NCBI GenBank assembly: GCA_025210735.1
Contig: JAOARD010000013.1
Coordinates: 1 to 64,000 of the forward strand
Origin: Bacteroidales bacterium
Lineage (GTDB): Bacteria > Bacteroidota > Bacteroidia > Bacteroidales > UBA6680
Length of the DNA stretch: 64,000 nt
Direction of reading: 5' to 3'
Shown here: piece by piece, positions 3,663-39,900 of the stretch
How positions within the stretch are numbered: the stretch's first letter is position 1
How the letters are laid out: every line of letters starts with the position of its first letter
Notes under the pieces: generated by a model
Told to the model about the DNA's origin: nothing
Seen by the model: only the letters and a program-made list of their open reading frames with translations
Database searches by the model: none
Position numbers and translations under genes: made by a program

Positions 3663-4358
3663 TTAATTTCTGCGCTTTCTGGCGGCAAGCATCTCCCGGT
3701 CAATAATCTGATTAATACTCATCATAATTGGTTTCCACTCTGCATCCTCTTCAACAGTAACCTTTGATGTTATATAGGTATTTACCTGCTTAATAATCTT
3801 CTTAATATCCTTCATAATCTCGTCAGACTTTCTGCCATCGTTTCCAGTAATATAAGAGTCACGCTCCTTAATACTAACCTCAAGATTATTGATATCTTTT
3901 TTTATATCCTCAACCAAATCCTCAACAGATAAAGCAGCAATATTTTGTATTGCCTCTGGAACATCAAAATCGCGGATTAGATTACTTGCCTTAGAGTTCT
4001 GAATACTGTAAGCCTCATTATGCATATCCCAACCATGGCGCTCAATAATAGAAATCAACTCATTTGCCGCCTCTCTCTTATCTCTGTTTTTAGACAGACT
4101 GTAACCTTTAAGGATATATTTCAGCGAACGAAATGAGTTATTGAACGAGCTGTCATTTGCACTAACAGTCTTTGTAATAGACGATGTTGTTGCTTTATAC
4201 ATACTACCCTCAAGCTCATTCAACGTATCTTTCAGGCTGTTGCGTAGTCTTGTAATTACTGCATCATCAATATTGCTGTCAATAATAGCATTCAAATAAC
4301 TTACTGAAAATGTATAAAAAGAATCCTGAGTTAAAAGATGATAGTTTATGGTTCTCAT
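3663..4358 (-). CDS. DUF6261-like protein
   Basis: 231 residues, no signal peptide, predicted almost all alpha-helical and cytoplasmic. The start MRTINYHLLTQDSFYTFSV, the long amphipathic helices and the basic tail (EMLAARKRRN) resemble the DUF6261 family that is abundant in Bacteroidota and of unknown function. The assignment is from memory of the family's look, not from a search. It is transcribed alone, leftward, converging on the lipoprotein gene, with a large repeat-containing non-coding region behind its start. Genes of this type often occur in many copies per genome near variable regions. Confidence 0.55.
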   Translation of the reverse strand: MRTINYHLLTQDSFYTFSVSYLNAIIDSNIDDAVITRLRNSLKDTLNELEGSMYKATTSSITKTVSANDSSFNNSFRSLKYILKGYSLSKNRDKREAANELISIIERHGWDMHNEAYSIQNSKASNLIRDFDVPEAIQNIAALSVEDLVEDIKKDINNLEVSIKERDSYITGNDGRKSDEIMKDIKKIIKQVNTYITSKVTVEEDAEWKPIMMSINQIIDREMLAARKRRN

Positions 4359-5228
4359 ATATTAAATGTACTGGTTAATAATCAATGCTCTATAACTAAA
4401 TTAACCAATAAAATTGATAAAGTCAAATAAAGCTTAGATAAATTTACTAATCATGTGGATTAATAATTGTATCAGTGATACACAACCAATCTCATTTATA
4501 ACCATTATAAAACGCCCTTCATATAGCCGTAAAAAAGCCACGCTACTCTATTCTGATAGCACACCACAATACAGTTCTTACAAGCCTGTTGTACATTATT
4601 ATTTTGTAGCCGTAAATTTTTTGAACCAGTTTGCTGCAACAAATCTGTTCTCAGGTTTTCCGGAGAACCCGTTGTACGATGTTTTTGCGTTGCCGAGAAT
4701 TTTTTGAACCTATTTACCGGAACAGATAAGCTCCCTGACTTTTTTTGAACCCACTGTACGATGTTTTTCTGTTCCCGAAAAAAAATTGAGCTTATTTGTC
4801 AGAGCAGATGCGTTCCCGAACTTTTTTTCAACTCATTGTACGGTGTTTTGCACCTTCAAAAACTTTCTGAGACGTTAGATAATTCTGTATTTGATCTTCA
4901 GTACCTATATCGGGAATAAAAATGAGCTATGTCAACTGGGTATTTTCTCTTATACAGAGCTAATTTCATAAAAAACTGCTGCTTAATGTTTAATATTTCG
5001 TTGATTTTTTGTTACTTCGGGCTCCTTTATATCACAATATTTTTTTATAAAACATATATATCAGATAAATTATATATAGTTGATATATTATGCTTTATGC
5101 GATATTAAGGAGTAATCCTCCTAAAGGAAGATATTTTTTATCCCGGACATATTATTAAGATTTGATAACAACTATTCAAAACTATAATATACTGTATGCC
5201 CGGGGCAAACAGAAATAAACTGGAACAT
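4359..5228. other. Long intergenic region with tandem repeats upstream of the T2SS-like locus
   Basis: About 870 bp separate the leftward DUF6261-like gene from the first pseudopilin gene. The middle holds the 82-bp repeat array. The last 300 bp are strongly AT-rich and must contain the promoter of the secretion locus. I see a small hairpin (AGGAG-TAATC-CTCCT, 5108-5122) about 105 bp before the pseudopilin start, but no convincing TTTG-N19-TAnnTTTG match. The 84-codon frame at 4453-4707 runs into the repeats and is not believed. Confidence 0.6.
4570..4880. repeat. Degenerate 82-bp tandem repeat, about 3.5 copies
   Basis: The landmark GTAC in TTGTACGATG-like sequence recurs at 4591, 4674, 4756 and 4838 (spacing 83, 82, 82). 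Each unit also contains TTTTTTGAAC, a YATTTR...GGAACAGAT-like block and a TTCCCGA-like block. Copies have diverged, and the frames through them have no consistent coding signature, so the array looks non-coding. Confidence 0.7.
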
Positions 5229-5639
5229 ATGCAAAAACTATCGTCTAAAAAGCTAAAAGCTTTTACACTATCAGAGTTACTTATTGTACTGGTTATTGTG
5301 GGTATATTACTGTTATTGGCTCTGCCAAAACTTATGCCGCTTATATCAAAAGCAAAATCAACCGAGGCACAGCTACAGTTGAGTCACCTGCATACACTTC
5401 AGAACACTCACTTCTTTACCTACTCCCGATTCTCAGATAATCTTGAGGAGATTGGTTTTGAACAGGAGAAACTGAATGGCGAAGGAGGTACAGCAAACTA
5501 CAGAATAGAGATTGTAGAGGCCGGACCTGACGGATTTGTTGCCCGTGCTACCTCTGTTGTTGATTTTGACAGAGATGGTAAATTTAATATGTGGGAGATT
5601 GATCAGGACAAGAAACTTGTTGAGGTAGTTAAGGACTAA
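5229..5639 (+). CDS. gspG: Major pseudopilin, GspG-like
   Basis: Structural subunit of the inner-membrane-anchored pseudopilus. From ATG 5229 the protein has a short basic leader (MQKLSSKKLKA) followed by FTLSELLIVLVIVGILLLLA, the class III prepilin signature with Glu at +5. Cleavage would fall between Ala and Phe, so the -1 residue is Ala rather than the usual Gly. The C-terminal part has VDFDRDGKFNMWEID, an Asp-rich loop like the calcium site of GspG. An in-frame ATG at 5196 would add 11 residues; the later start gives the typical leader length. First gene of the locus; its TAA overlaps the ATG of the prepilin peptidase by one base. Confidence 0.85.
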   Translation: MQKLSSKKLKAFTLSELLIVLVIVGILLLLALPKLMPLISKAKSTEAQLQLSHLHTLQNTHFFTYSRFSDNLEEIGFEQEKLNGEGGTANYRIEIVEAGPDGFVARATSVVDFDRDGKFNMWEIDQDKKLVEVVKD

Positions 5640-6091
5640 TGATTGTTGCTATTGCTCTTTGCGTGCAGCTTATTTATGCATTTATACAAGACAGCAAACA
5701 GCGTGCACTCTCGTTGTGGTTGCTCATAACAATATCGGTATCCGGACTATTGTGGAGCTACAATAACTATGGAGTTCTCTATCTTGCTGAGTATATAATA
5801 AACATGCTGTTTCTGCTGTTTATGTTTGGCGGAATAACAATATTCTGGAAAATAAGAAGAGGCAAAGATGCAAACCTGCTTAAACAAGCATTTGGTGGTG
5901 CCGATGTATGGATGATTATACTACTTGCTATAATGTTACCTCCGGTAATGTTTGTATCAAACGTAATAATAGCATCAGTAACATCGCTGCTACTTGCAAT
6001 AATCTTCAGATGGAAAACAATACCACTTGCAGGAGTAATGAGTTTATGTTTAACACTATTTGTAATTATTAATCAGCTTAATATTATCTGA
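5639..6091 (+). CDS. gspO: Prepilin peptidase, A24 family, short form
   Basis: Integral membrane aspartyl protease that cleaves the leaders of the pseudopilins. At 150 residues it has only the peptidase core and lacks the N-terminal methyltransferase-type domain of PilD. The two catalytic aspartates are recognisable: D18 in FIQDSKQRALSLW (consensus D-x-x-x-R-x-x-P/S) and D89 in FGGADVWMI (consensus G-x-G-D). About five or six transmembrane helices cover the rest. Translational overlap (TAATG) with the gspG-like gene upstream and a 2-bp gap to the ATPase downstream tie it firmly to this system and suggest a dedicated enzyme. Confidence 0.85.
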   Translation: MIVAIALCVQLIYAFIQDSKQRALSLWLLITISVSGLLWSYNNYGVLYLAEYIINMLFLLFMFGGITIFWKIRRGKDANLLKQAFGGADVWMIILLAIMLPPVMFVSNVIIASVTSLLLAIIFRWKTIPLAGVMSLCLTLFVIINQLNII

Positions 6092-6093
6092 AT

Positions 6094-7530
6094 ATGTCAG
6101 ACTTATTAGAGTTAGGAACAGAAGCTATACAGAGTCTGAGCGCAGCACAGGCATGGCACTACAAAATATTGCCCGGTGCACCCGATGGCGATAATCAGAC
6201 AGTATATTGTGCCGACAGAGATGATATTGATGTTTTAGCAGAGGAGATTACTGTAATACTCAACAAGAATGTAATTGTTGAGATTATAGATGATAAATTG
6301 CTGAACAAAGGTCTGGCACGCTACTATGGCAGAAAAACCGAAGGAGCTACACTAATAGAGGGGGTACAGGAAGATGATTTTCTGTTGCAGATGATAGATG
6401 AGGCTGCCCGAGTAAAGTGTAGTGATATACATTTTGAGCGATATGAGACCAAGTGCCGTGTACGTATGCGTATAGACGGAAAACTTATAGAGCGTTACGT
6501 ACTTGATTCAGATACATACCCAACATTAATAAATAAGATAAAGATACTATCTAACCTTGATATTGCAGAGAAACGTTTGCCACAGGCCGGACGACTATCC
6601 TTTGGACAGACAGGATCTAAGATAGATATCCGTGTATCGGTATTACCAACCCTACATGGCGAAAAGATTGTTCTGCGTCTGCTAAGTAACGATGCTTCTG
6701 AGATAAACCTTGACGATCTGGGGTTTAATGAAGAGCAGATGCAGGAGTATCTGAGAGCCGTAAAGAAACCAAACGGAATAATACTAATCAGCGGACCTAC
6801 AGGATCGGGAAAAACAACAACACTGTACGCAACATTAAAACTGCTGAATAAAGAGACCCATAACATATTAACAGTTGAAGATCCTGTTGAGTATACACTT
6901 GAGGGGATAAACCAGGTGCATGTAAAGGAGAGTATAGGGTTAACATTTGCAGAGGCATTGCGTACATTCCTGCGCCAGGATCCTGACATTATAATGCTTG
7001 GTGAGATACGCGACAGCGAAACAGCACAGATGGCTATACGTGCTGCTCTTACCGGTCACATTGTGTTATCAACAATACATACAAACTCAGCCTGGGGTAT
7101 AGTATCACGACTAAAGGATATGGATATACCATCGTTTCTGTTAACCGGAACACTTAATATGGCAATGGCGCAACGTCTGGTAAGAGTACTGTGCCCGCAC
7201 TGTAAAGCAGCGAAACCATTCTCGGCTGGTTATATGCCACCCGGATACGATATACCGCAAAAAATAGATAAACACTACGAGGCTGTAGGTTGCAGCGCAT
7301 GTTACTATACCGGCTACAAAGGACGTAAAGCAGTATATGAGATGCTTACAATAGATCAGTCGTTAACAAAATATATTAAGAACGATAGCGAAGATATTAA
7401 CAACTATTTCAAAGAGAATAAAAAGACACGCCTATCTGATGCAGCATTTGATCTGTTACTCAGAGGCGAGACATCAATAGAAGAGATATACCCGATAATA
7501 CTTGATCAGACAAATAACATGTCAAGATAA
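6094..7530 (+). CDS. gspE: Secretion ATPase, GspE/PilB-like
   Basis: Cytoplasmic hexameric ATPase that powers pseudopilus assembly. Of 478 residues, about 1-95 form the N-terminal domain. The ATPase core carries Walker A GPTGSGKTTTLY (G234 onward), the Asp box EDPVEYTLEG, Walker B DPDIIMLGEIRD, and the His box TGHIVLSTIHTN. A zinc-binding insertion has two cysteine pairs, CPHC and CSAC, followed by GYKGRKAVYEML as in GspE and PilB. Length is near the GspE norm. It sits 2 bp after the prepilin peptidase gene. It is closer to E/B ATPases than to the retraction ATPase PilT because of the zinc motif and N-domain. Confidence 0.95.
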   Translation: MSDLLELGTEAIQSLSAAQAWHYKILPGAPDGDNQTVYCADRDDIDVLAEEITVILNKNVIVEIIDDKLLNKGLARYYGRKTEGATLIEGVQEDDFLLQMIDEAARVKCSDIHFERYETKCRVRMRIDGKLIERYVLDSDTYPTLINKIKILSNLDIAEKRLPQAGRLSFGQTGSKIDIRVSVLPTLHGEKIVLRLLSNDASEINLDDLGFNEEQMQEYLRAVKKPNGIILISGPTGSGKTTTLYATLKLLNKETHNILTVEDPVEYTLEGINQVHVKESIGLTFAEALRTFLRQDPDIIMLGEIRDSETAQMAIRAALTGHIVLSTIHTNSAWGIVSRLKDMDIPSFLLTGTLNMAMAQRLVRVLCPHCKAAKPFSAGYMPPGYDIPQKIDKHYEAVGCSACYYTGYKGRKAVYEMLTIDQSLTKYIKNDSEDINNYFKENKKTRLSDAAFDLLLRGETSIEEIYPIILDQTNNMSR

Positions 7531-7597
7531 TATTATCAGACAGAACATATAAAGATACAAGGGATTTACCCTGATAACAGAGAATAGACAGACAGAT

Positions 7598-9490
7598 ATG
7601 AGAATACACTACAGAGCAATATGCATAGTTATTATTTTTACATCGCTGGTCAGCAACCTGTTTGCCAACCAGAAAGAGTTTAAAGATATAGAGAAGGAGC
7701 TGCGTGCACTTTCAGACTCAATACCGGCACTTAGCCAGACAATAGATATTACAGTAACCAACATTCCGGTGCAGGAATTTCTGCGCGGAGTTGCAAACAA
7801 TAGCGGACTTAATCTGAATGTTGATACCAGCGTTTCAGGAACCATTGTTAATAACTTTACAGGAGTAAAAACAGTTGATATATTGCTGTTTCTGTGTCGC
7901 GAGTATGGGCTATCAGTAAGGGTTATTGGTAATATAATAACCATATACAAACCATATATTGCTCCGCCTGAGATAGATAAAGTGGTATGGAACGATACAA
8001 CACAACGCGTATCGCTCGATTTCAGACAAGAGAAACTAACAGATGTGGTTCGTCTTATAACAGAATATACAGGTAAAAATGTTGCTGTATCGTCTGATAT
8101 AGAGACAAAAAGTATAAACTATTTTGTACGTAATGCAGATCTGGCTCATGCAATGGAGAGTATGGCATTTGCAAACGGACTGCAATATAAGCTTGCTGAC
8201 AACGGATTTACACTGTTGAGTAAAAAGGTTAAGAAACCACGCAGTTCGCGCAACAGAAACAATAACAATGGAGGTTACGATGAGCATCAGCAGTACAAAC
8301 CACGAGGTAAAGTAAATATTACAGATATCAACAATATTGAGCTAAGTCTGGTAAACGAGCCGTTTATGCCTCTTGTACGCGAGATATGCGATAACCTTGG
8401 GATAAGTTATGTATTTCAGGAGCCAATTGACAGAAAGGTAAACTTCTTTGGACGCAAGGTATCTCTATACGACTTCCTGACAAGCATAACCGAGGGTACA
8501 CCATTTACATATCTGAATAATAACGGAGTACTTATATTTGGTCAGAAGATAAAGACAGAACTGTTTAAGAATAGCATAATAAAGATGACACACCGCTCTG
8601 TTGATAGCCTGAGCATGGCTATACCACGTGCGCTAAAGAGTGGATGTGAGATAAAAGAGCTGGTAGAGTATAACAGTCTGCTGGTATCGGGACCTGAGCC
8701 ACGTGTTAAACAGATTACAGAGTTTGTTAAGGAGCTTGATAAAACAATTCCGGTAATACTTATTGAGGTAATTATTGTTGATGTTAAAAAGAACTACACA
8801 ATAGAGACAGGTATAAGAGCCGGAACAGGTAAAAACCCAACACCTACAAACCAGACAATATTCCCGGGTGTTGACTATACACTCAGCACAAAAAGTATTA
8901 ACAATATTGTTGATAAGTTTAACGGCGTATTCTCAACAAGCATTGGTAAGGTATCAAGCAACTTCTATATGAGTATTAAAGCACTTGAGAACAACGGGGT
9001 ACTAAAAATAAGATCAACACCAAAGCTATCAACACTTAACGGACGCAAAGCGGTACTTACAAGTGGCGAGAAGAAATACTATAAAGAGGAGAAAAATCAA
9101 TATTACGGAACACAGAACCCGCAATTATCGAGCAGTTATGAGTGGAAACCACTTGATGCAGAACTTAAACTAACTATACTGCCAATAGTATCAGAAGGAG
9201 AGGAGATAACCCTCTCTATAGAGGTTGAGCAGTCGGAGTTTACAGCCAGGGAGTTTGATGGCGCTGCACCTCCCGGATCTATAACCCGTAAGTTTGTATC
9301 GTCAATAAGAGTTAAGAATGAGGAGATGGTGCTGCTAGGAGGTATAGAGAAACTCTCAAAAACGGACTCAAGCACAGGTATACCGCTATTGGCACGTATC
9401 CCGGTAATAAAGTGGTTATTCTCATCAAGAACAAAGCAGAAGACAAACGATAAACTTAATGTATTTATTAAGCCGGTAATCCTGAACTGA
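7598..9490 (+). CDS. gspD: Secretin, GspD-like outer-membrane channel
   Basis: Forms the multimeric outer-membrane gate. The 630 residues begin with a signal peptide ending near SNLFA-NQ. They continue with an STN/N0-like domain (about 45-120; VQEFLRGVANNSGLNLNV), further N-domains, a low-complexity Asn/Arg linker (about 210-235), and the C-terminal secretin domain from about 390 to the end. That domain shows VEVIIVDVKKNY, RSTPKLSTLNGRKAVLTSGE, and the end pattern GGIEKLSKTDSSTGIPLLA with IPVIKWLFSS. The stop codon overlaps the next start by one base. Outer-membrane insertion might use the lipoprotein encoded further on; that is inference. Confidence 0.93.
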   Translation: MRIHYRAICIVIIFTSLVSNLFANQKEFKDIEKELRALSDSIPALSQTIDITVTNIPVQEFLRGVANNSGLNLNVDTSVSGTIVNNFTGVKTVDILLFLCREYGLSVRVIGNIITIYKPYIAPPEIDKVVWNDTTQRVSLDFRQEKLTDVVRLITEYTGKNVAVSSDIETKSINYFVRNADLAHAMESMAFANGLQYKLADNGFTLLSKKVKKPRSSRNRNNNNGGYDEHQQYKPRGKVNITDINNIELSLVNEPFMPLVREICDNLGISYVFQEPIDRKVNFFGRKVSLYDFLTSITEGTPFTYLNNNGVLIFGQKIKTELFKNSIIKMTHRSVDSLSMAIPRALKSGCEIKELVEYNSLLVSGPEPRVKQITEFVKELDKTIPVILIEVIIVDVKKNYTIETGIRAGTGKNPTPTNQTIFPGVDYTLSTKSINNIVDKFNGVFSTSIGKVSSNFYMSIKALENNGVLKIRSTPKLSTLNGRKAVLTSGEKKYYKEEKNQYYGTQNPQLSSSYEWKPLDAELKLTILPIVSEGEEITLSIEVEQSEFTAREFDGAAPPGSITRKFVSSIRVKNEEMVLLGGIEKLSKTDSSTGIPLLARIPVIKWLFSSRTKQKTNDKLNVFIKPVILN

Positions 9491-10716
9491 TGATTGATAA
9501 ACTGTATAACAAAAAATTCTGGCTCGGAAACAGTGTTATGGGATTAGCCATAACGCTGAATCCTTCAGGGGTATCGTCAGGTAAAGCTGTGCATATAAAG
9601 CGCAAAAAATCTGAAACCAATATAGAGGAGCAGTGGAGCTTTAACTCTATAGATATCCCAAAAAAGGTAAAACGAACATACCCATGTGTTGTAAACCTGT
9701 CAGGCAGCGGAATTATACATAAAATTGCTAAAAAGGGAGAGAAGGTTGGCGACCATTTTCCAGACTTTAACAGCTCACAATTCTATGTACAGACCATTCC
9801 GTTTGGCAACGGATATGTTATATCGGTTATTCGCAAGAGCAGGGTAGATGATATAATAGACGAGTTGCGTGGAATGGGATTTACCATTGCCGGAATATCA
9901 CTCGGGGCACCACTGCTTATAAACTATGCAGCTGTTATAGATAGTAATGTAGAGACTATTGCTTTTGATGGATTACGATTTGTAATACAACAGGGTAAAG
10001 TTGTTGGTGTATCGCGCAGTAAAGATAGCGATCACTCGCTATATATATCAGGCGGACGTATAGATACAGCAACAGTTCCGGCATATCTATCGGGATTAAA
10101 CTACTTTATTAAAGGAGCAGAGTGTAGTGCTGTTGACTGGACAGATGCAAACAGAGAGGTGTTCTTTAAACGAATGATAAAAATTACAGGATTGTCTGTA
10201 CTAATACTGTTCTTTACAGTGCTTATGGTTAACTACCTTCTGTTCGACTATTACTCATCGTTACGTGCAGAACAGGATGAACTTTTTAGTTTTAACCAGA
10301 GTACACTGCGCGAAAACTCATTATTAAAGAAAAAACTTGAGTATAAACGAACCCTGTTTGACAGATTCTACTCAGTACGCGACAGAGATTTTGCATACTA
10401 TGCCGATAGAATATTTGCTGATACACCCGCCGGAGTATCACTTACAGATTGGTGGATGGCTGCACCGGAAATTAAACGAAACAGATTTCAGAAGAGTGTA
10501 GAGTACAATTACGGAACAATTAAGATATCTGGTACTGCCAGAACCGATGTTGCTTTTGAGCGATATGTAAACAGACTTAAGAACAACAAACTGGTTGAAA
10601 GGGTATATATTCTTGATTTTGTACAGCCCGGAGATAGTAAAACAGGTGAGTTTAAACTTAATGTAATTATTAATAGAGGTAAACATACAGATAATGGCGA
10701 AAAGAGGAAAAAGTGA
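9490..10716 (+). CDS. gspL: Assembly platform protein, GspL/PilM-PilN-like
   Basis: 408 residues. The N-terminal ~225 residues look like a cytoplasmic actin-like (PilM/GspL) domain, including VETIAFDGLRFVIQQGKVVG. One transmembrane helix spans about 231-251 (GLSVLILFFTVLMVNYLLFDY). After it come a coiled coil (SLRAEQDEL...LLKKKLEYKR) and a small alpha/beta PilN-like periplasmic domain ending in an extremely basic tail (HTDNGEKRKK). This fused M+N layout is what GspL has. It is expected to link the ATPase to the inner-membrane platform. It overlaps gspD by one base and the M-like gene by 23 bases. Assignment is by architecture and position, because this family is weakly conserved. Confidence 0.75.
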   Translation: MIDKLYNKKFWLGNSVMGLAITLNPSGVSSGKAVHIKRKKSETNIEEQWSFNSIDIPKKVKRTYPCVVNLSGSGIIHKIAKKGEKVGDHFPDFNSSQFYVQTIPFGNGYVISVIRKSRVDDIIDELRGMGFTIAGISLGAPLLINYAAVIDSNVETIAFDGLRFVIQQGKVVGVSRSKDSDHSLYISGGRIDTATVPAYLSGLNYFIKGAECSAVDWTDANREVFFKRMIKITGLSVLILFFTVLMVNYLLFDYYSSLRAEQDELFSFNQSTLRENSLLKKKLEYKRTLFDRFYSVRDRDFAYYADRIFADTPAGVSLTDWWMAAPEIKRNRFQKSVEYNYGTIKISGTARTDVAFERYVNRLKNNKLVERVYILDFVQPGDSKTGEFKLNVIINRGKHTDNGEKRKK

Positions 10717-11233
10717 GGTTAAGCTATACCTGTTGCTGATATCGGCTGTAGTATTTGCCTTTATAGTTTGGAATGTAGCACTTTCTGAGACATTAATACT
10801 GCGCAGCAAATATAAAGATATACAGAAGAAACTGGATAATAACGAAGATATAGGGAAGAGCATTGGAATAATGAAATCTACCCTTAAGCAATACTCACAA
10901 CTTATAGGTGAGATTGCTACCGATGAGTTCTCGCATGAACAGTTACTGTCTGAGATAAGCAAACTATGTGTAAGATATAATGTACGCATAACAGAATTTC
11001 CGGAGGTTAATATTCACGATCTGAGCAGCGACAGAATATTCACCTCTAAGGTGGTTATTGAGGGTACTACATTTAACCTTCTTAAACTGCTTAAGCAGTA
11101 CGAGACAAAGGGTAAAAGTGGTAGTATTGTTAGTACCAGATTTTACAGTAAAACGTACCGGAAGACAGGAAAAACAACCTGTATTTTGGTAATGTATATA
11201 GAGAATGTTAAACATATTGAGCAAAAGAGTTAG
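10694..11233 (+). CDS. gspM: GspM/PilO-like inner-membrane protein
   Basis: 179 residues with a short basic cytoplasmic start (MAKRGKSEVK), one transmembrane helix (about 11-29), a coiled-coil region (ILRSKYKDIQKKLDNNEDI), and a ferredoxin-like alpha/beta domain (ISKLCVRYNVRITEFPEV ... VVIEGTTFNLLKLLKQYE). That is the GspM/PilO plan, and the position directly after a GspL-like gene agrees. It would form the periplasmic partner of GspL. The gene starts inside the end of the L-like gene (23-bp overlap), implying translational coupling. Sequence identity to characterised GspM is probably low; the call relies on architecture. Confidence 0.7.
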   Translation: MAKRGKSEVKLYLLLISAVVFAFIVWNVALSETLILRSKYKDIQKKLDNNEDIGKSIGIMKSTLKQYSQLIGEIATDEFSHEQLLSEISKLCVRYNVRITEFPEVNIHDLSSDRIFTSKVVIEGTTFNLLKLLKQYETKGKSGSIVSTRFYSKTYRKTGKTTCILVMYIENVKHIEQKS

Positions 11234-11240
11234 ATATACT

Positions 11241-11328
11241 GTCGCATTTAGCGGAGTTTTGTCAGATTGAGTGGAGTCGTTTGTCACATTGAGCGGAGCC
11301 GTTTTGTCACATTGAGCGGAGTCGAAAT
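11241..11328. repeat. Four short REP-like repeats (about 22 bp) within the T2SS-like locus
   Basis: Units of the form GTCACATTGAGCGGAGTCG start at 11241, 11261, 11283 and 11306 (spacing 20, 22, 23), with the last copy ending GAAATG. The first copies are degenerate. This GC-rich motif stands out from its surroundings and resembles dispersed intergenic repeats known from many Bacteroidota genomes. It separates the M-like gene from the lipoprotein gene. Confidence 0.75.
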
Positions 11329-11414
11329 GTATAGCTCTCAACTCTGCACTAATAGACAGAAGCTTACATGTATCATTCATTAGATAAAAGATAAAGAGAA
11401 TAAAAAATAAACAT

Positions 11415-12374
11415 ATGGAAAATAGCAGAGTAGTATTATATGTAATAGCAGTGTCGGCACTGCTGCTTGCAGCCTGCGAAGATATCTTTGAGAAGGATGT
11501 ATCAGATGTAAAATTAGAGATGATATCGCCTGCTGATAAGATGAGTTCACCAGAACAGGGTATAATGTTTAAATGGCGCGAGAATGAAGATGCTGAGCGT
11601 TACAACCTACAGGTAGTTAAAGGAGAATTCTCTGCAATAACAAACTTCTATGTAGATACATTGATATCAGTATCCAGATTCGAGAAGGTGTTATCTGCCG
11701 GTAATTTCCAGTGGCGTGTTCGTATTGTAAACGGCTCATCAAAATCGGAATGGGTAACACGCAGTTTTACAATAGAGCAGAGTAAAGATATAACAACAGT
11801 AGAGCCTGTACTACTTACACCAGAAAATCAGGCAGCAACAAATAAGAGCGATGTAGAGATGAGTTGGGAGGCACTTGATGGCGCATCAAACTATACACTA
11901 CGTGTTTATAAATCGGGCTGGGGAAGTGAACTGGTAGAGGATATTAGTGTGTTTGAAGGGACAAAGAAGAGTGTTACGCTTGTTGATGGTACATATACAT
12001 GGGGAGTAATAGGACGCAATAGTGCAAATAATTCGCGTCCGTCAACACGTGTATTAACAATAGATACCAAGAGTCCTGTTGCATCAGAACCATCTACCCC
12101 TGCAGAGGGTGCTGTACAAACATCATTTGATGTTCTGTTTACATGGACAAGACCAACCGACAATGGTAGTGCATTATCAGATTCAATAATAATATCAAAA
12201 ACCAATAAATTTAAAAAGGCAGATATAGTAGCAAAAGCTCTTGTAACAGGCGATGCGCGATACAATGCAACGTTCACAGAGAAGATAACCTACTACTGGC
12301 GACTTAAAACATTTGATAAAGCGGGTAATAGCTCCGGTTATTCGGCTGTTAAATCGTTCAGAGTTAGTTTTTAA
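11415..12374 (+). CDS. Lipoprotein with fibronectin-III-like modules, T2SS-locus component
   Basis: 319 residues. The signal peptide ends in lipobox LLAA-C (acylated Cys about residue 21) followed by EDIFEK, so the protein should be anchored in a membrane. The rest is three beta-sandwich-like modules of about 95 residues, each ending in a Y/F-x-W-R/G-V/L strand (FQWRVRIVNGSSKSEW; YTWGVIGRNSANNSRP; YYWRLKTFDKAGNSSG). The pattern is that of fibronectin type III or Ig-like domains. It could assist secretin assembly in place of the GspS pilotin, or be a surface-exposed cargo receptor. Neither is shown by sequence. Its place between the M- and C-like genes argues for a structural role. Confidence 0.7.
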   Translation: MENSRVVLYVIAVSALLLAACEDIFEKDVSDVKLEMISPADKMSSPEQGIMFKWRENEDAERYNLQVVKGEFSAITNFYVDTLISVSRFEKVLSAGNFQWRVRIVNGSSKSEWVTRSFTIEQSKDITTVEPVLLTPENQAATNKSDVEMSWEALDGASNYTLRVYKSGWGSELVEDISVFEGTKKSVTLVDGTYTWGVIGRNSANNSRPSTRVLTIDTKSPVASEPSTPAEGAVQTSFDVLFTWTRPTDNGSALSDSIIISKTNKFKKADIVAKALVTGDARYNATFTEKITYYWRLKTFDKAGNSSGYSAVKSFRVSF

Positions 12375-12470
12375 TATAATCCAGTGATGAATAAACTCCT
12401 ATCTATGGTAGAACAGATAGTGTTCTGATGTATTAGTAGGAACAGATCATTGAAAAGAAAAAGGAAACGG

Positions 12471-12965
12471 ATGAAAAAATCGAAGAACAAAAAGATAAAC
12501 TACCTTCTGATACCTGCCGTAGCTGGTATATGGGGTATAATTATCTACAAGGTATTTTTCTCAATGGCATCTGATGGTTATGAGTTTGTTAATAAAGCAG
12601 GAGGAGTAGCAGGCGAGAGTGTTGAGTTACCTGAGCAGCGTAAATACAGACTTAAGCTGAACTATACCGATCCGTTTACCAAAGGTGCAGCAATGGCGGA
12701 ACCAGAATATGGCGATGACAGAGGTGATAACTACTACGGATATAATACTGATGTTGTTGTTAATAACAGTAATATTCAGTGGCCTGAGATAAAATATTAC
12801 GGATTATCAAGCAATAAGAAGAAACGTGTTGGCTGGATAAGTATATCGGGTAAATCGTTGCTTGTGCGCAATGGCGATGTATGTAACGATGTTGTTGTGA
12901 AAAGAATAATGGGCGATTCTGTGCTTCTGAAATATAAAGGTGAGTACAAAACATTTAAGATGTAA
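12471..12965 (+). CDS. gspC: GspC/PilP-like periplasmic connector
   Basis: 164 residues from ATG 12471; an upstream in-frame TTG at 12450 would add seven basic residues. There is one N-terminal transmembrane helix (YLLIPAVAGIWGIIIYKVFF). A linker follows with the motif YRLKLNYTDPF. The C-terminal homology-region-like domain contains IKYYGLSSNKKKRVGWISISG, split by its basic loop, then a LLVRNGD turn and VVVKRIMGDSVLLKYKGEYK. This is the GspC HR / PilP pattern that contacts the secretin N0 domain. Its location beside other Gsp components supports the call. No PDZ domain is present. Confidence 0.75.
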   Translation: MKKSKNKKINYLLIPAVAGIWGIIIYKVFFSMASDGYEFVNKAGGVAGESVELPEQRKYRLKLNYTDPFTKGAAMAEPEYGDDRGDNYYGYNTDVVVNNSNIQWPEIKYYGLSSNKKKRVGWISISGKSLLVRNGDVCNDVVVKRIMGDSVLLKYKGEYKTFKM

Positions 12966-13056
12966 TTTCCGGTTCTGATGTGAGAGATATCTCAGTAATT
13001 GGTAACAGAATCTTATTATAGTTAATTAAAAAAGATATAAAATAGAATACAGACAT

Positions 13057-13626
13057 ATGGGAAGAGTATATTTTGTGATATTAACAATTCTGTTTACAGT
13101 TGCCGGTTCAAATGCCAGCGGACAGGATTATGATGAGGCAACAAGATCTGTAACGCTTAATTACAGAGACTCAACTATATATTTCAGGGTAATAAGAGAG
13201 AAACCATATAAAATTGATAAACCACGGTATGCTATCTATAGTAAAGGTAAAATACAGGAGGTTGATGCTTTAATATCAGGATCACCGCTGCATGGTGTAT
13301 ATGAGGTATTTGACGCAGAGCGTAATATTATACGCAGAGGTGAGTACTACAGAGGTGTTAAACATGGCAGATGGATTGAATTTACCAGAGACGGTCATAT
13401 TAAGAGTGATCAGAACTGGAAACGTGGCGAGAGAGTGGTTGAGAAGGTTAAGAAGAAGAGAAAAAAGAGCAAGAGAAAAGATAAAGCTGTTACAGAAACT
13501 GAGCAGAAAGAGAAGAGGGGATTCTTTAAACGGATTGGAGATATTTTCAAGGGCAAAGAGAAGGATAATAAAAAAGATGATATAACCAATGAGGCGGTAT
13601 CTTCAGAACATAACAAACCTAAGTAA
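13057..13626 (+). CDS. Exported MORN-like protein with a Lys-rich tail, T2SS-locus component
   Basis: 189 residues. A signal peptide (about 1-22, ending NASGQ) precedes a beta-rich domain containing a MORN-type motif (RRGEYYRGVKHGRWIEFTRD). From residue 125 on the sequence is extremely basic and low complexity (KKKRKKSKRKDK, then KGKEKDNKKDD). The tail would bind acidic surfaces such as LPS, nucleic acid or another component. I know of no counterpart among standard T2SS proteins. It lies inside the operon and the next gene begins 38 bp before its stop, so its expression is coupled to the pseudopilins. Function unknown. Confidence 0.65.
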   Translation: MGRVYFVILTILFTVAGSNASGQDYDEATRSVTLNYRDSTIYFRVIREKPYKIDKPRYAIYSKGKIQEVDALISGSPLHGVYEVFDAERNIIRRGEYYRGVKHGRWIEFTRDGHIKSDQNWKRGERVVEKVKKKRKKSKRKDKAVTETEQKEKRGFFKRIGDIFKGKEKDNKKDDITNEAVSSEHNKPK

Positions 13627-14875
13627 GAGAATAAAGGGAGGTGCTCTCTCATATGTAATACTTATGATTCTGATCTTAAGTATTATGTTATCTATGTATC
13701 TTCTTTACAGATACTACAAGGTTAAAGAGGTTGATATTGAGTATGTATCGTTACAACTTCAACAAGATATTAAATCGGGTATTAATCTGTTAGAGCACAA
13801 CGTTGTTGATATCTCCGATACCGGTACAGAGTTAGCTCTGTTTGAAGGATCTGTTGATAGCCTTAGGTTTGTAAAGAGAGCTTGGGGTGTTTTTGATCTT
13901 ATTCATATTACCGCTATATACAGAGGTAAAACGCGTAACAGAACAATGCTGAGTGGCGTTAACTACAAGGCCGAAGCATTTCCTGCACTATATCTTGCCG
14001 ATAAAAACAGATATCTATCTATAAGCGGAAAGTCCGGTATTGTTGGTAACTGTATATTGCCGCGTATGGGAATACGCAGAGGTTATGCAGAGGGTGTTGG
14101 CTTTTATGCAGACTCACTTGTATATGGTAGTGTTGGTGAGGCAGATAAAGTATTGCCTAAGATAGATGACAGGTTTACCAATATCGATTATTTGAGTTAT
14201 CAACAATCTGACTCAACTGTTAATTACGCCTCAATACCATTTGGTAAGGTGCTGTTTAACTCTTTTGCCAATAACAGGATATCTATTGCAGGTAAAAAGA
14301 TGTTCAGGCCATCGGGTGTGAAACTTAAGGGTAATATTGTATTAAGTGCCGACAGTCTTATAGTTTTAGATAAGAGCATGATGCTTACAGATATTATTGT
14401 AAAAGCCCAGGAGATACATGTAGAGAGTGGGTTTAAAGGGCGGGTGCAACTATTTGCCACAAAACGGGTGGTTATAAACGGAGGAGTTACCCTTATCTAC
14501 CCTTCGGCAGTTGTTGTAAGCAGTAAACACAAACCCGATAAGCTAAAACCAATGGTTACTGTAGGTAAGGGTACGGCTATATATGGTGCTGTTTCTGTAA
14601 CCGATACCGACAAAAAGAGTAAGGAGATTATATATAAAGCAAATCCCGGAAGTTTTGTATCGGGTGTTGTTTATGTTGATGGGGTTGCCTGCCAACAGGG
14701 TACAGTTCATGGTAGTATCTATACTGAGATGTTCAGGTACAGATCGCGTATTGCAGAGTATGAGAATCATTTGTCGGGTATAGTTATTAACAACAGAGCT
14801 GTTAAAAAAGGCTTTGCTGTTCCTGATATGTTTAATAGTAAAACCAATATAAAATGCATGTTCCGGGTGGAGTAA
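13589..14875 (+). CDS. gspK: Minor pseudopilin, GspK/PilX-like, with beta-solenoid-like ectodomain
   Basis: 428 residues. The N-terminus has a basic leader ending RIKG-GALSYVILMILILSIML, a prepilin-like site followed by a hydrophobic helix. There is no Glu at +5, which is characteristic of the tip subunit GspK. The extracytoplasmic part is large. Around residues 240-350 it shows short alternating strands with repeated I/V-x-V/I pairs (LKGNIVLSADSLIVLD; IIVKAQEIHVESGFKG; RVVINGGVTLIYPSAVVV), suggesting a right-handed beta-helix or bactofilin-like solenoid rather than the usual GspK fold. It overlaps the preceding gene by 38 bp and the next by 22 bp. Confidence 0.65.
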   Translation: MRRYLQNITNLSKRIKGGALSYVILMILILSIMLSMYLLYRYYKVKEVDIEYVSLQLQQDIKSGINLLEHNVVDISDTGTELALFEGSVDSLRFVKRAWGVFDLIHITAIYRGKTRNRTMLSGVNYKAEAFPALYLADKNRYLSISGKSGIVGNCILPRMGIRRGYAEGVGFYADSLVYGSVGEADKVLPKIDDRFTNIDYLSYQQSDSTVNYASIPFGKVLFNSFANNRISIAGKKMFRPSGVKLKGNIVLSADSLIVLDKSMMLTDIIVKAQEIHVESGFKGRVQLFATKRVVINGGVTLIYPSAVVVSSKHKPDKLKPMVTVGKGTAIYGAVSVTDTDKKSKEIIYKANPGSFVSGVVYVDGVACQQGTVHGSIYTEMFRYRSRIAEYENHLSGIVINNRAVKKGFAVPDMFNSKTNIKCMFRVE

Positions 14876-15222
14876 AGCTTAAAGGATCTACCTTAATTGA
14901 GGTAATTGTTGCAATGACCATTCTTACACTGTTTTGGGCTATAGCAATGACTATTGTTGTTAAGATAGATTTTGAGCTAAATGAGATACGACAGCAGCGT
15001 GCAATGTATTTCCTTACCAAAGCTGTTAATGGCAATCAGGAGATAACCGATATACCAGAAGATTGGGATATTGTTGTTGATAAGATAGACGATAAGGACG
15101 GATTAACTCTGGTTGAGTTTAGGATAAAGGATAGAAGAGGAAAGGTTGTTTACAGACTTAACAGGTGGGAGAAAACAGAGGATTATAACAGACGAATGGA
15201 GGCAGACAGCTTTTTCAGATAG
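14854..15222 (+). CDS. gspI: Minor pseudopilin, GspI-like
   Basis: 122 residues with a classic prepilin signal: leader MHVPGGVKLKG, then STLIEVIVAMTILTLFWAIA with Glu at +5. Cleavage would be after Gly. The short globular domain (LTLVEFRIKDRRGKVVYRL) has the size expected of GspI. Its start lies 22 bp inside the K-like gene. In characterised systems I, J and K form the pilus tip complex, and the contiguous order K-I-J/H here fits that. The letter is by size and position, since minor pseudopilins are hard to separate from one another by sequence. Confidence 0.7.
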   Translation: MHVPGGVKLKGSTLIEVIVAMTILTLFWAIAMTIVVKIDFELNEIRQQRAMYFLTKAVNGNQEITDIPEDWDIVVDKIDDKDGLTLVEFRIKDRRGKVVYRLNRWEKTEDYNRRMEADSFFR

Positions 15223-15226
15223 TATT

Positions 15227-15718
15227 ATGAACAGAGGAACAGGGATATTATACAGATTAAGAACTAAGAGGTTGCGGGCGTTTACATTGTCGGAGCTTGT
15301 AATTACTATGGTACTTATTGTAATTGTGGTATCATCAGCTATGGCTGCATATAAGTATCTGTTCAGATATACCATAAATCATAAACAGTCAGAGATTCAG
15401 GACTACACTATGTTTCAGAGTATTCTTAACAGCGATGTTGAAAAATCGGAACTGGTTATAGCATTGGCTTCTGACAGGTTTGTTACACGTAACTACAACA
15501 TGACAGAGACGGAGTATATTGTTGATATGAATTTCTGGGTAAGAAAGACTCAGGCAAGACAGGATACATTCTTTTTTAGCACAGAGAGCTTTGTGTTTGA
15601 GACATTCTATAACTCAGATATTGTACATACCATTGACCTTGTTGCATGCTACGATGATGTTGTTATTAAGTGGGTAAAGCGTTATCCTGAGCATTTTTAC
15701 TGGACTAAAAGGCGATAA
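15227..15718 (+). CDS. Minor pseudopilin, GspJ/GspH-like
   Basis: 163 residues from ATG 15227, four bases after the previous stop. A longer frame starting at 15146 is rejected because it overlaps the I-like gene and hides the leader. The N-terminus MNRGTGILYRLRTKRLRA precedes FTLSELVITMVLIVIVVSSA, a prepilin site with Ala at -1 and Glu at +5. The C-terminal domain is mixed alpha/beta. It could be J (a tip subunit) or H; position after the I-like gene favours J. The stop is followed by 71 bp of leader before the F-like gene. Confidence 0.7.
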   Translation: MNRGTGILYRLRTKRLRAFTLSELVITMVLIVIVVSSAMAAYKYLFRYTINHKQSEIQDYTMFQSILNSDVEKSELVIALASDRFVTRNYNMTETEYIVDMNFWVRKTQARQDTFFFSTESFVFETFYNSDIVHTIDLVACYDDVVIKWVKRYPEHFYWTKRR

Positions 15719-15737
15719 TATGGAACTAATCAAGAGG

Positions 15738-15794
15738 ATGATTATAAATGCGAGTTCCATCTGGCAATTGAAAAACAAATTATAAACAGATGAA
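15738..15794 (+). promoter_or_regulatory. Leader repeat upstream of the F-like gene, pairs with its start codon
   Basis: The segment contains GAGTTCCATCTG, a 23-nt A-rich spacer, and CAGATGAA, in which ATG (15790) is the start of the F-like gene. CATCTG (15758-15763) is the reverse complement of CAGATG (15787-15792). The same arrangement, with an identical spacer length and high identity, occurs before lpxB. It could be a repeat that supplies a leader, or a start-codon-masking hairpin. Confidence 0.55.
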
Positions 15795-16932
15795 GATTGA
15801 TCTTAAAAATATAGAGACGTCAGATAACATAAAGAGCGGTAAAGGTACTGCTGTTAATGATAGTGTTCCGTTCTGGAAAAAGGAGATATCATTAAAGAAA
15901 TCGTTCCCGAATAAGCGCAAGGCCGATATGTATGCCGAGTTTGCAATTATGATTGAGAATGGTGTTGATATTCTTACATCTGTTGATCTGTTGTATAAGG
16001 AAGAGAAGAAGGCACAGGAGAAGCAGTTTTTCCTTATGGCAAAGGAGCGACTGATAATGGGAGACTCTTTCTCGACCATTGTAAAAGATAAGTTCTCATC
16101 GTATGAGTACTACAGTATAAAGATGGGTGAAGAGAGTGGACGTTTAGCAGAGGTATTCGGTATACTAGCCGAGTTTTATGATCGTAAGGTTAAGCAGAGT
16201 CGTCAGCTTATAAGTGCAATTACATATCCAATAATTGTATTGTTAACAGCCGTTCTTGCTGTATGGTTTATGTTATCGTTTATAGTACCGCTGTTTAGCG
16301 ATGTGTTTACCCGTTTTGGATCTGAACTGCCGGCATTAACAGAGATGTTAATGGATATGTCTGAGTTTATGAACCAATATAGCTCTGTGATATTTTTTAC
16401 TATTCTTGGAGTGATAATAGTATTGTACAGACTAAGAAAACGAACATTCATGCGCCGTTTATCCGGAGGTCTGGTTATGCGTATCCCTCTTCTGCGTAAT
16501 ATGTTTACAAGAATATACGTAGATAGACTGTTTCAGGCACTATCATTACTTGTTAAGGCTAATGTTCCTCTTGTAAGAGCCATAGAGTTGTCTGGTAAGA
16601 TGATTGGATTCTATCCGCTTGAGAAGATAATGGAGCGTATTCATAAGGGGCTTATGGTTGGTGAGAACCTATATGTACTTATGGAGCGTGAGAAGTTTTT
16701 TGATAGTAAATTAACTGTTCTTATAAAGGTTGGAGAAGAGGTTAATCAACTTGGTAACATGTTTGACAAGTTGCATAAACAGCTATCAGAAGAGGTGGAG
16801 CATAAAGCCTCGCAGATGGGAAGTATTGTAGAGCCAATGCTTATTATTATTGTAGGTGGTCTTGTTGGAACAATACTTATAGCAATGTACCTCCCAATGT
16901 TCCAGTTAGGAGGCAGTATTATGGGGCAATAG
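15790..16932 (+). CDS. gspF: Inner-membrane platform protein, GspF/PilC-like
   Basis: 380 residues. It contains two copies of the T2SSF helical-bundle domain (about 45-165 and 245-365). Signatures are MIENGVDILTSVDLLYKEE in the first and LLVKANVPLVRAIELSG in the second, plus GEESGRLAEVFGILAEFYDR and GEEVNQLGNMFDKLHKQL. Transmembrane helices lie at about 144-170, 198-217 and 347-372. Family members interact with the ATPase and rotate or scaffold pseudopilin insertion. It is the last gene of the locus; the next gene is convergent. Its separate leader suggests it may be regulated apart from the others. Confidence 0.93.
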   Translation: MKIDLKNIETSDNIKSGKGTAVNDSVPFWKKEISLKKSFPNKRKADMYAEFAIMIENGVDILTSVDLLYKEEKKAQEKQFFLMAKERLIMGDSFSTIVKDKFSSYEYYSIKMGEESGRLAEVFGILAEFYDRKVKQSRQLISAITYPIIVLLTAVLAVWFMLSFIVPLFSDVFTRFGSELPALTEMLMDMSEFMNQYSSVIFFTILGVIIVLYRLRKRTFMRRLSGGLVMRIPLLRNMFTRIYVDRLFQALSLLVKANVPLVRAIELSGKMIGFYPLEKIMERIHKGLMVGENLYVLMEREKFFDSKLTVLIKVGEEVNQLGNMFDKLHKQLSEEVEHKASQMGSIVEPMLIIIVGGLVGTILIAMYLPMFQLGGSIMGQ

Positions 16933-36977: not shown

Positions 36978-39900
36978 ATGACCATACTAAAAAAATATTT
37001 ATTACCATCTATATTTCTACTAGCCATTGCATGGTTCATTATCAACCCCGGATATTCAGGAATAGTTGATGCTGTAGAAAGTATATTGCCGGAAAATGAT
37101 TCAATAAAGGATAAAACATCTTTAGAGAAACTTCCCAGCATAACAGATATTAAGAGTCCGTTGATTCCTAAAACTAGCCCTAAATTAGATCTGGAAATTG
37201 TTTTTGATTCAGAGAAGGGTGAGTATGTGGTAAGACAGAAGCTGGGAAACAAAGATTTTGGTGTTCCTAAGTATATGAGTGTTGATGAGTTTAAATCGTA
37301 TGACTTTGAACAGTCGATATATAAATACTGGAAAGAGAAATCTGATAATGCACGAATGGCCGGAGGCGATAACAGGCTTGTTGGAGGAAGGCTGAGAATT
37401 GGAGGAGGAGCTTTAGATAAGGTTCTTGGAGATAATGCTATTGAGATTATCCCTCAGGGTAGTGCAGAGCTATCATTAGGTGTTAAGATTAACAAACAGG
37501 ATAACCCTGTGTTAATGGAGAACCAAAAAAGTACTGTTAACTTTGATTATGACTCAAAAATTCAAGCGAATGTAACCGGAAAGGTAGGAGATAAGTTTAA
37601 AGTGAACTTTGATTACAATACAGAGGCAACATTCGATTTTGAGAATAATGTTAAGATAGAGTATAAGGGAGATGAAGACGAGATAATTCAGCGAATAGAA
37701 GCTGGTAATGTAACATTCCCTTTGAGTGGAACGCTTATAACTGGAAGTCAGAGCCTTTTTGGTATTAAAACCGATTTGCAGTTCGGTAAACTCTCTGTAT
37801 CAGGAGTATTCTCGCAGCAACGTGGAGAGTCTTCGGTAATTGAAGTTAAAGGAGGTGCTCAAACACAGAGTTTTGAGATAAGAGCCGATGAGTACGAGGC
37901 AAACAAACACTTTTTCTTAGCACAATATTTCCGTGAGAATTATAATAAATTTGTAGCAACACTTCCGCTAATAAACTCAGGAATAAAGATTACAAGGGTA
38001 GAGGTTTGGGTAACCAATAAAACTTCTGAGTTTGAGAACTCAAGAAATATTCTTGGTCTTATGGATCTTGCAGAACGTGGAGCAAATATATCTAATCCAC
38101 TAATTAATAGTGTAACATCTGGTGATAATCCTATGAATCTGCCGGATAATAAACTTAACGATCTGTATACTGATCTTAAGACACTTCCGGGAGTTAGAGC
38201 TATTGAGTCACTAAATTCAACACTAAACGGATATAAGAACTTTAAGGTTGGTAGAGATTATGAGAAGATAGAGAGTGCCCGTAAGCTTGACACACGAGAA
38301 TATAAAGTAAACTACGATCTTGGATTTGTTACTGTTAATACATCACTTAATAACGATGAGGTTCTGGCGGTTGCTTTTGAATTTCAGAGTGGAGGAAAGA
38401 CGTATCAGGTTGGAGAATTTTCTAATGATGTAAAAGCTCCTGATGTTCTTATGCTTAAGCTGATAAAAGGAACGAATATAACACCTAAGTTAAATACATG
38501 GCATCTTATGATGAAGAACGTGTATGCAACAGGAGGTTACCAGTTGAGTAGCGATGGATTTTTCCTTGATGTAATGTATGAGGACGATAAAGCAGGAACA
38601 TCTATTAACTATATTCCGGCAGGAAATCTTAATAAGAAGATGTTGCTTCAGGTACTTGGATTTGACCGTGTGAATAATCAGGGATTCCCAACACCAGATG
38701 CGATATATGATTATGTTGAGGGGGTAACAGTATTATCTTCGAATGGACGAGTATTTCTTCCTACACTAGAACCTTTTGGTCAGGATCTTTACGATAAGTT
38801 TGATGATCCGAATCTGGCACAGAAATATGCATTTACGGCTCTTTATGACTCTACAATAACAAAAGCAAAAGAACAGACAGTAAAGAATAAGTTTAAGATA
38901 ATTGGATCGTTTAAATCATCAGGAGGGTCTGATATACAACTTAATGCAATGAATATTCCTAAAGGATCTGTAAAGGTTACTGCCGGAGGTATTGAGCTTG
39001 TTGAGAATATTGATTTTACAGTTGATTATACATTAGGAAGGGTGAAGATTGTAAACCCTGCTTATCTGGAATCTGGAACGCCTTTAAGGATATCGACAGA
39101 GAGTAATTCGTTATTTAATGTTCAGACTAAGACATTATTAGGGACACACCTGAACTATCAGTTTAATGACGATTTTAATATTGGTGCAACCATAATGAGT
39201 TTGTCAGAACGTCCGTTAACGCAGAAAGTAGATTTTGGTAATCAGCCAATACATAACGTTATATGGGGACTTGACGGGTCATATAAAACAGAATCGAGAT
39301 TCCTGACAAAACTTGTTGATAAAATTCCTCTGATTGAAACAAAGGAGATATCAAGTATTGCTGTATCAGGTGAATTTGCACAGTTCTTGCCAGGACAATC
39401 TAAAGCTGTTGGTAATTCAGGTGTTACGTATCTTGATGATTTTGAGGGTGCAGAGAGTCCTATGACGCTGGAGGATAAATATTCATGGTATCTTGCCAGT
39501 GTACCTCAGTTGCAGCCAAATCTGTTTAAGGAGTCGTCAGAAACAGGTCTCGGAACAGGATTTAACCGTGCACGTATAGCATGGTATAATATAGATCCAA
39601 TATTCCAGAGAGACGAAGCCCTTACACCATCACATATTAAATCTGATGATGATCAGCAATCTAACCATTATGTAAGGGAGGTTTATGAACAGGAACTTTT
39701 TCCTGCAAAGGAGTCGCAGAACTATGAGATAAACAGATTAAGTACATTTGACCTTACATATTATCCGGACGAGAGAGGCCCGTATAACTACGAGACAGCA
39801 GGTACACCTTATTCAGCAGGTATAAACAATCAGGGTAAGCTATCTAATCCAGCATCAAGATGGGGGGGGATTATGCGTAAGCTTACAAATAATAACTTTG

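Follow-up and report, generated by a model that had tools for sequence, protein, structure and literature searches.

A single-copy type IV filament machine that recurs in Bacteroidia, with a predicted role in secretion or surface presentation

Protein export in the Bacteroidota is discussed mainly in terms of the type IX secretion system (T9SS). A locus encoding the parts of a different machine, in a genome that also carries the T9SS translocon gene sprA, raises the question of what that machine is and what it might do. Such a locus lies at positions 5226-16932 of the 64,000-nucleotide stretch analysed here (the window), which is taken from contig JAOARD010000013.1 of a Bacteroidales bacterium (assembly GCA_025210735.1). 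An initial annotation, made from the letters alone, had found genes resembling those of type II secretion systems (T2SS) and type IV pili (T4P) and had read them as a second, complete path over the outer membrane. It is suggested here that the locus probably encodes a complete, single-copy type IV filament machine which recurs in Bacteroidia and is predicted to serve secretion or surface presentation through a short pseudopilus that grows beneath one secretin.

The locus comprises 13 genes, all on the + strand, in the order G-O-E-D-L-M-lipoprotein-C-MORN-K-I-J-F. All of the genes named in the initial annotation are open in that one direction and are supported by family matches or by profiles and models, and the overlapping starts it described are also present: five of the 12 junctions overlap (G/O, D/L, L/M, MORN/K and K/I), and at O/E and I/J the gap is one or two bases. 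The starts of C and J were corrected to the most likely positions, 12471 and 15224 respectively. G (5226..5639) is the major pseudopilin (N_methyl, 3.6e-6), with predicted cleavage after Ala, between KA and FTLSE, and a DxDxDG-type C-terminal loop is found in 44 of 47 members of its family. The prepilin peptidase O (5639..6091; Peptidase_A24, 3.2e-8) consists of the A24 domain only, since its 150 aa leave no space for an N-terminal methylase domain, and 44 of 45 family members are likewise of 145-203 aa; a regular expression for its second catalytic Asp matched 4/45, was too narrow, and nothing is drawn from it. E (6094..7530; T2SSE, 1.4e-127) is the assembly/secretion ATPase, D (7598..9490; Secretin, 1.5e-36) a secretin of 630 aa, and F (15790..16932; T2SSF, 5.2e-40) the inner-membrane platform protein. 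Two minor pseudopilins precede F, these being I (14854..15222, 122 aa, predicted cleavage between G and STLIE; N_methyl 7e-4, just below the cut-off) and J (15224..15718, 164 aa, predicted cleavage between A and FTLSE; N_methyl 7.5e-4, just below the cut-off, and ComGF 7e-5, below the cut-off).

Pfam and NCBIfam give clear names to G, O, E, D and F; among the best 25 matches listed, none to an NCBIfam model of a T2SS or T4P component reached its cut-off, and the cut-off of the generic prepilin N-terminal domain (TIGR02532) was passed by G. Set against their cut-offs in bits, the NCBIfam T2SS models gave 479/630 for E, 138/351 for D, 198/424 for F and 34/89 for G, all falling short. E is near-tied between GspE (479 bits) and PilB (476 bits), neither of which reaches its cut-off, and its TadA family score of 60.7 bits, against a cut-off of 373, sets it outside the Tad-type ATPases. 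D scores higher with PilQ (146 bits) than with GspD, and G is matched by PilA_Myxo (5e-13) ahead of GspG (2.6e-8), with all four scores below the NCBIfam cut-offs; G gave no match to Pfam T2SSG. F scores higher with GspF than with either of two PilC models (174 and 157 bits).

The L-, M-, C- and K-like proteins gave no firm single-sequence family match and were placed by profiles and models. The L-like protein (9490..10716) is an inner-membrane platform protein with a C-terminal PilN-like domain (PilN, 0.012), which was detected in 14 of 26 family members (E<=0.01), and the M-like protein (10694..11233) is a PilO-like inner-membrane protein whose family profile matches PilO (3jc8) at E 0.0055. 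The L/M-like reading of these two genes stands to this extent; an identity of L with GspL was considered and dropped, there being no profile support and no convincing PDB relative by sequence. The C-like protein (12471..12965) has a transmembrane helix, an invariant DPF motif and an HR domain with the predicted fold of GspC/PilP; the best score is with GspC and the PilP fold lies near it. Structure prediction thus upheld the C-like reading, and the membrane-anchored HR domain expected of a T2SS is there.

Searches of the genome of the window (5.63 Mb, 97.7% complete, 76 contigs), in which all candidates were scored, found the T2SSE-type ATPase, the T2SSF protein (with two domains), the secretin and the A24 peptidase in single copy and all within the locus, which agrees with the earlier description of a self-contained machine with its own peptidase. 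Two genomes of the same genus also have one T2SSE-type ATPase each. With a single such ATPase in the genome no PilT was found, and this statement covers the three genus genomes, because at most four candidates per genome were scored in the wider search for E described below and a PilT elsewhere in the class could have escaped it.

The gene set recurs in 48 other Bacteroidia loci and a chance origin of the cluster is therefore excluded. These loci are 40 regions (up to 20 kb) from the 62 genomes of the class sample with a strong match to E, one of the 62 regions being the window's own, together with seven named Bacteroidota and two same-genus genomes, minus one duplicate (L038 = L140). The seven came from the best 80 of at least 588 E loci, and the other 73, none titled Bacteroidota (L080 is an 'uncultured bacterium') and many with short flanks, served as references; their T2SS labels reflect gene context, not curation, and the label 'other' is no proof of a pilus. 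One round of phmmer with the proteins of the window as queries (E < 1e-3, 49 loci) detected the lipoprotein and C in 40 loci each, K in 33 and the MORN protein in 28. With iterated profiles and one family per open reading frame (ORF), the 48 loci gave D and L in 48, M in 46, G in 45, O in 44, C in 42, the lipoprotein in 39, J and F in 33, K in 32, the MORN protein in 31 and I in 25, with E in 48 by construction, as the loci were found by it. All 12 families asked for, I not being counted, were found in 22 loci. These counts are lower bounds, since flanks often end before the second module, and best-family assignment was used because short pilin profiles cross-match G and inflate the raw counts of I and J (47/49).

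The lipoprotein, MORN and K profiles found nothing in the 73 reference loci, many of which have short flanks. The genes that the initial annotation had described as lacking a counterpart in classical T2SS, and on whose presence in homologous loci it had staked its reading, are conserved parts of the machine in Bacteroidia. Queries from the Escherichia coli K-12 T2SS found GspC, H, I, K, L, M and O in none of 50 Bacteroidia loci and GspJ in one, and in the reference loci they found C in 8, H in 32, I in 17, J in 18, K in 25, L in 6, M in 4 and O in 8, so that the comparison has power for H to K and is weak for C, L, M and O.

The class was sampled with 395 Bacteroidia genomes. Cut-offs for strong matches (below 1e-70 for the ATPase E, at most 1e-10 for K, below 1e-70 for the lipoprotein and below 1e-25 for the MORN protein) were placed after viewing the gaps in the lists, and weaker lipoprotein and MORN matches (243/395 at E <= 1e-3, 306/395 at E <= 1e-10), being widespread generic FN3 and MORN repeats, were left out. 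E is strong in 62 genomes, about one in six, K in 63, and the lipoprotein and the MORN protein in 55 each. E and K occur together in 57, E only in 5, K only in 6 and neither in 327; E is accompanied by the lipoprotein in 52 and by the MORN protein in 50, all 55 MORN-positive genomes have K, and all four proteins are found in 50 genomes and any of them in 68. Fisher p values for co-occurrence with E, uncorrected for shared ancestry, are 1e-55 for K, 7e-51 for the lipoprotein and 7e-46 for the MORN protein. One of the 62 genomes (G073) may hold another system, as its E match is partial and the neighbours lie outside the set except for a weak F fragment. Another (G344, 8.2 Mb) has two E and two K on different contigs (L151 = G344:C32; G344:C19), with a lipoprotein-like match beside one, and likely holds two such machines. 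Within the order, E was found in none of 49 genomes outside the genus (38 and 11 more); databases do hold E from other entries named 'Bacteroidales bacterium' and Odoribacter is among the carriers listed by Wang 2017, so its presence in the order is patchy. A sample of 365 genomes from the phylum gave 30 with K, of which 16 belong to other classes. In the 12 of these 16 loci that were examined, K was present in 12, F in 11, and E and D within the stretch in three, a figure limited by the flanks; four have M and C as neighbours among the matches listed, with no lipoprotein between them, and neither the lipoprotein nor the MORN protein was found in any of the 12 within the same flank limits. K and the platform thus seem to predate the class, unless they were transferred, and the lipoprotein and MORN protein seem to have been gained within Bacteroidia.

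The lipoprotein (11415..12374) has Ig/FN3-like domains (FN3 matches) and is predicted to be surface exposed; its gene stands directly between M and C in 31 of the 48 loci. In the Flavobacteriaceae loci L035, L037, L038 and L140 it is shortened to about 117 aa and the secretin is longer (712-743 aa vs about 640), which could mean that a part has been moved or lost. The MORN_2-type protein (13057..13626; MORN_2 0.016) is predicted to be exported and has a Lys-rich tail. MORN_2 was detected in 19 of 26 members of its family (E<=0.01) and the gene adjoins K in 23 of the 48 loci.

K (13589..14875) is a pilin-like protein of 428 aa whose N-terminal helix is hydrophobic and without Glu. Its model, which is confident, is that of a pilin bearing a beta-solenoid domain, the architecture of Thermus ComZ, and ComZ is also its best Foldseek match, a weak one (E 5.6e-3, probability 0.5-0.6). 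ComZ was absent from the sequence-profile matches of K at E<=1. As to fold, the suggestion that K is GspK did not hold up, because the hhalign alignment with GspK of K-12 is confined to the N-helix (56 columns at a probability of 1.2%) and K is modelled as a beta-solenoid. A viral source for the solenoid was also considered and gave no match at E <= 0.001. At least 50 proteins of the K family, including that of the window, were found among 7995 candidates in a search of 5.8 billion proteins and none has a Pfam domain; source names were listed for 13 of them, 12 being 'hypothetical' and one 'polymer-forming cytoskeletal'.

The ancestry of E and F was examined in trees. The E tree has 124 rows, and a branch with an SH-aLRT support of 100 sets apart its 49 Bacteroidia rows; all 33 rows of T2SS context fall on another branch, of 43 rows (96), from which the Bacteroidia are absent. 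In the F tree (95 rows) the Bacteroidia branch has a support of 97 and the T2SS rows are on a 39-row branch (98). E and F of Bacteroidia form a clade of their own outside the T2SS rows, but the approximately unbiased (AU) test did not reject a single clade of Bacteroidia and T2SS for E (p 0.477; 96 rows, with 21 of the 49 Bacteroidia kept) or for F (p 0.416; 85 rows, with 10 long-branch rows dropped). The trees agree with the place apart from T2SS given by Denise 2019, and are no proof of an independent origin; by themselves they do not place the system with type IVa pili (T4aP).

The machine is the already published 'Bacteroidetes T2SS' of Cytophaga hutchinsonii (Wang 2017, PMC5553014; Denise 2019, PMC6668835), which corrects the earlier remark that T2SS-like loci of this phylum are little described. 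Wang 2017 describes the cluster CHU_3191-3202 as a putative T2SS and gives the same system for two Flavobacterium species, Pedobacter and Odoribacter, with F. johnsoniae among the carriers in Table 2. Mutants of D, F and G grow poorly on cellulose and adhere to it less, and their set of cellulose-bound outer-membrane proteins is altered. Motility was not noticeably affected, the D mutant spreading a little less, and by electron microscopy the D mutant resembles the wild type (PMC5553014). Denise 2019 sets the system apart from T2SS, clusters it with T4aP and proposes that it may be a new type of secretion system that arose from T4aP (PMC6668835). Our own literature searches, outside whose coverage most subscription papers fall, returned only Wang 2017 for type II secretion, pseudopilins or T9SS in Flavobacterium, none for MORN repeats with type II secretion in Bacteroidetes, and one paper, on monoderm surfaces, for a minor-pilin solenoid in Bacteroidetes.

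How might such a machine work? In outline, ATP-driven growth of a short pseudopilus under the secretin is predicted to secrete proteins or present them at the surface. By homology, O would cleave G, I, J and K, and E with F would polymerise G, while the L-, M- and C-like proteins would form the connection between D and the inner membrane, C turning its HR domain towards the secretin. K may sit with I and J at the tip of the pseudopilus, since the solenoid of ComZ has been argued to fit only there, and could offer its solenoid to cargo or to the secretin lumen. The FN3 lipoprotein, to judge from its export signal, would be carried to the cell surface and may be an exit-side partner of the secretin or a cargo receptor, and the MORN protein is probably periplasmic and near K. 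As no PilT was found, the filament is not expected to retract by that route.

Several observations weigh against this interpretation. In six of the 63 K-positive genomes E was found neither at first nor by a second search. Two of them (G086 and G263) have the locus cut off by the end of a contig and two others are 69% (G076) and 59% (G399) complete; the remaining two, G154 (100%) and G199 (97%), keep K, the MORN protein, the lipoprotein and C but show neither E nor D alongside (L186 = G154:C63, L185 = G199:C25). K is cut by the contig start in G154 and L is shortened in G199, which looks like partial loss, a decaying locus or an assembly gap; as these genomes are near-complete, the co-occurrence has real exceptions. 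The export signal, defined as at least two D/E at +2..+6 after the lipobox Cys, is present in 24 of 30 family lipoproteins vs 4 of 19 control lipobox ORFs, a control that is small and set against lipoproteins that are mutually related. Ice-binding beta-solenoids equal ComZ by Z in the comparison of K, and with the weak Foldseek match this makes the kinship of K and ComZ one of architecture, with descent unproven. No conserved cargo gene was found in the loci, the largest unassigned family being present in four (blastp, E 1e-5, half-length overlap). Extracellular proteins were hardly changed in the C. hutchinsonii mutants, as reported by Wang 2017, so that release of soluble proteins is doubtful; the second, complete path over the outer membrane proposed in the initial annotation was an inference and does not stand as it was put. 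The authors of that study also state that functional equivalence of the gene products with T2SS proteins cannot be concluded (PMC5553014).

It could be argued that the locus is instead a highly diverged true T2SS, sister to that of Proteobacteria, in which the minor parts have drifted beyond recognition. The AU tests leave such a clade standing for both E and F, the HR domain of the C-like protein scores best with GspC, F prefers GspF over PilC, K has an N-helix without Glu as does GspK, and there is no PilT. We nevertheless regard this as unlikely, given that the T2SS-context rows group to the exclusion of Bacteroidia in both trees, that the K-12 queries returned a single GspJ (a test with little force for C, L, M and O), that G has no T2SSG match, that K is modelled with a beta-solenoid and that Denise 2019 clusters the system with T4aP.

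A type IVa-like surface pilus or adhesin for attachment would suit the preference of D for PilQ and of G for the Myxococcus PilA model, the near-equal scores of E with PilB and GspE, the PilO match of M and, from Wang 2017, the reduced adhesion of t2s mutants to cellulose. It is improbable when the single ATPase and lack of PilT in the three genus genomes are considered together with the wild-type morphology of the D mutant and the lack of a noticeable effect on cell motility in C. hutchinsonii. The likeness of K to ComZ, a tip-associated DNA-binding pilin, raises the further possibility of a DNA-uptake (competence) pseudopilus with a ComZ-like receptor at its tip. In a paper on Riemerella columbina (PMC7965970), PilB and PilT queries find one and the same protein in F. 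johnsoniae and the authors think that the homologues of this species might suffice for DNA uptake; F. johnsoniae, a listed carrier, was nonetheless not competent under conditions where R. columbina was. Because K matches ComZ weakly, searches found no PilT and the published phenotype concerns cellulose use and outer-membrane proteins, we consider a role in competence distinctly improbable. The secretion or surface-presentation machine outlined above is thus the reading we retain.

A more far-reaching form of it is offered tentatively, and we think it less likely than not: this could be a third outer-membrane secretion machine of Bacteroidota, distinct from T2SS, with a non-retracting pseudopilus, a ComZ-type K tip and a surface FN3 lipoprotein at the exit, acting in surface placement alongside T9SS. 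K, L, M and C would then be older and shared with other classes, and the lipoprotein and MORN protein would have been added in Bacteroidia. What is new here, a list of parts that is now defined and a pilin modelled with a solenoid and placed at the tip, strengthens the idea of a separate machine without proving it. The frequency of strong E matches in the class sets a second machine beside the T9SS-centred view, and the 13-gene list provides markers for its detection and candidate tip and exit proteins. It also offers a means of deciding if protein secretion arose from pili on more than one occasion, a possibility raised by Denise 2019.

The surroundings of the locus were also inspected. A DUF6261 protein is encoded just upstream (window 3663-4358, - strand) and a closely similar frame occupies the same place in the sister genome (L004). 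In that genome, positions 73-6008 of L004 hold, by eye, fragments and frames with what we take to be an RHS-repeat motif upstream of the locus, and frames akin to these are found beside it in a few further genomes. Downstream of sprA the window encodes two large proteins (52067-55822 and 56258-62710) that carry choice-of-anchor J domains together with sorting tails of the T9SS type A kind.

Comparison with known systems places the locus closest to the C. hutchinsonii cluster, where G, an A24-domain O, E, D, L/M/C candidates, F and minor pseudopilins likewise stand together. In the parts of Wang 2017 that were consulted no role is given to a lipoprotein, MORN protein or solenoid pilin, and the gene numbering suggests that CHU_3192 may occupy the position of the lipoprotein. 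Denise 2019 used Cytophaga as the representative and found no further proteins systematically tied to the system type, whereas a 13-gene set is described here in 48 loci. The gspC-O system of E. coli K-12 shares the secretin, ATPase, platform F, HR-domain C, pseudopilins and own peptidase, and a secretin, a GspE-type ATPase, GspF and pseudopilins are encoded together as in a T2SS; the present locus differs in the C, H, I, K, L, M and O products missed by the K-12 queries, in its short peptidase, in the beta-solenoid predicted on K and in the extra lipoprotein and MORN protein. Thermus thermophilus ComZ (PDB 6qvi, PMC6561018) resembles the model of K in its pilin-like N-terminal part, large beta-solenoid and C-terminal strand after the solenoid, but functions in DNA uptake. 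As the initial annotation had held, the machine is separate from the T9SS, whose translocon SprA (36978..44351, + strand; TIGR04189, 2560 bits, cut-off 200) is encoded 20 kb downstream: the two are present in the same genome and cross the same outer membrane with different components.

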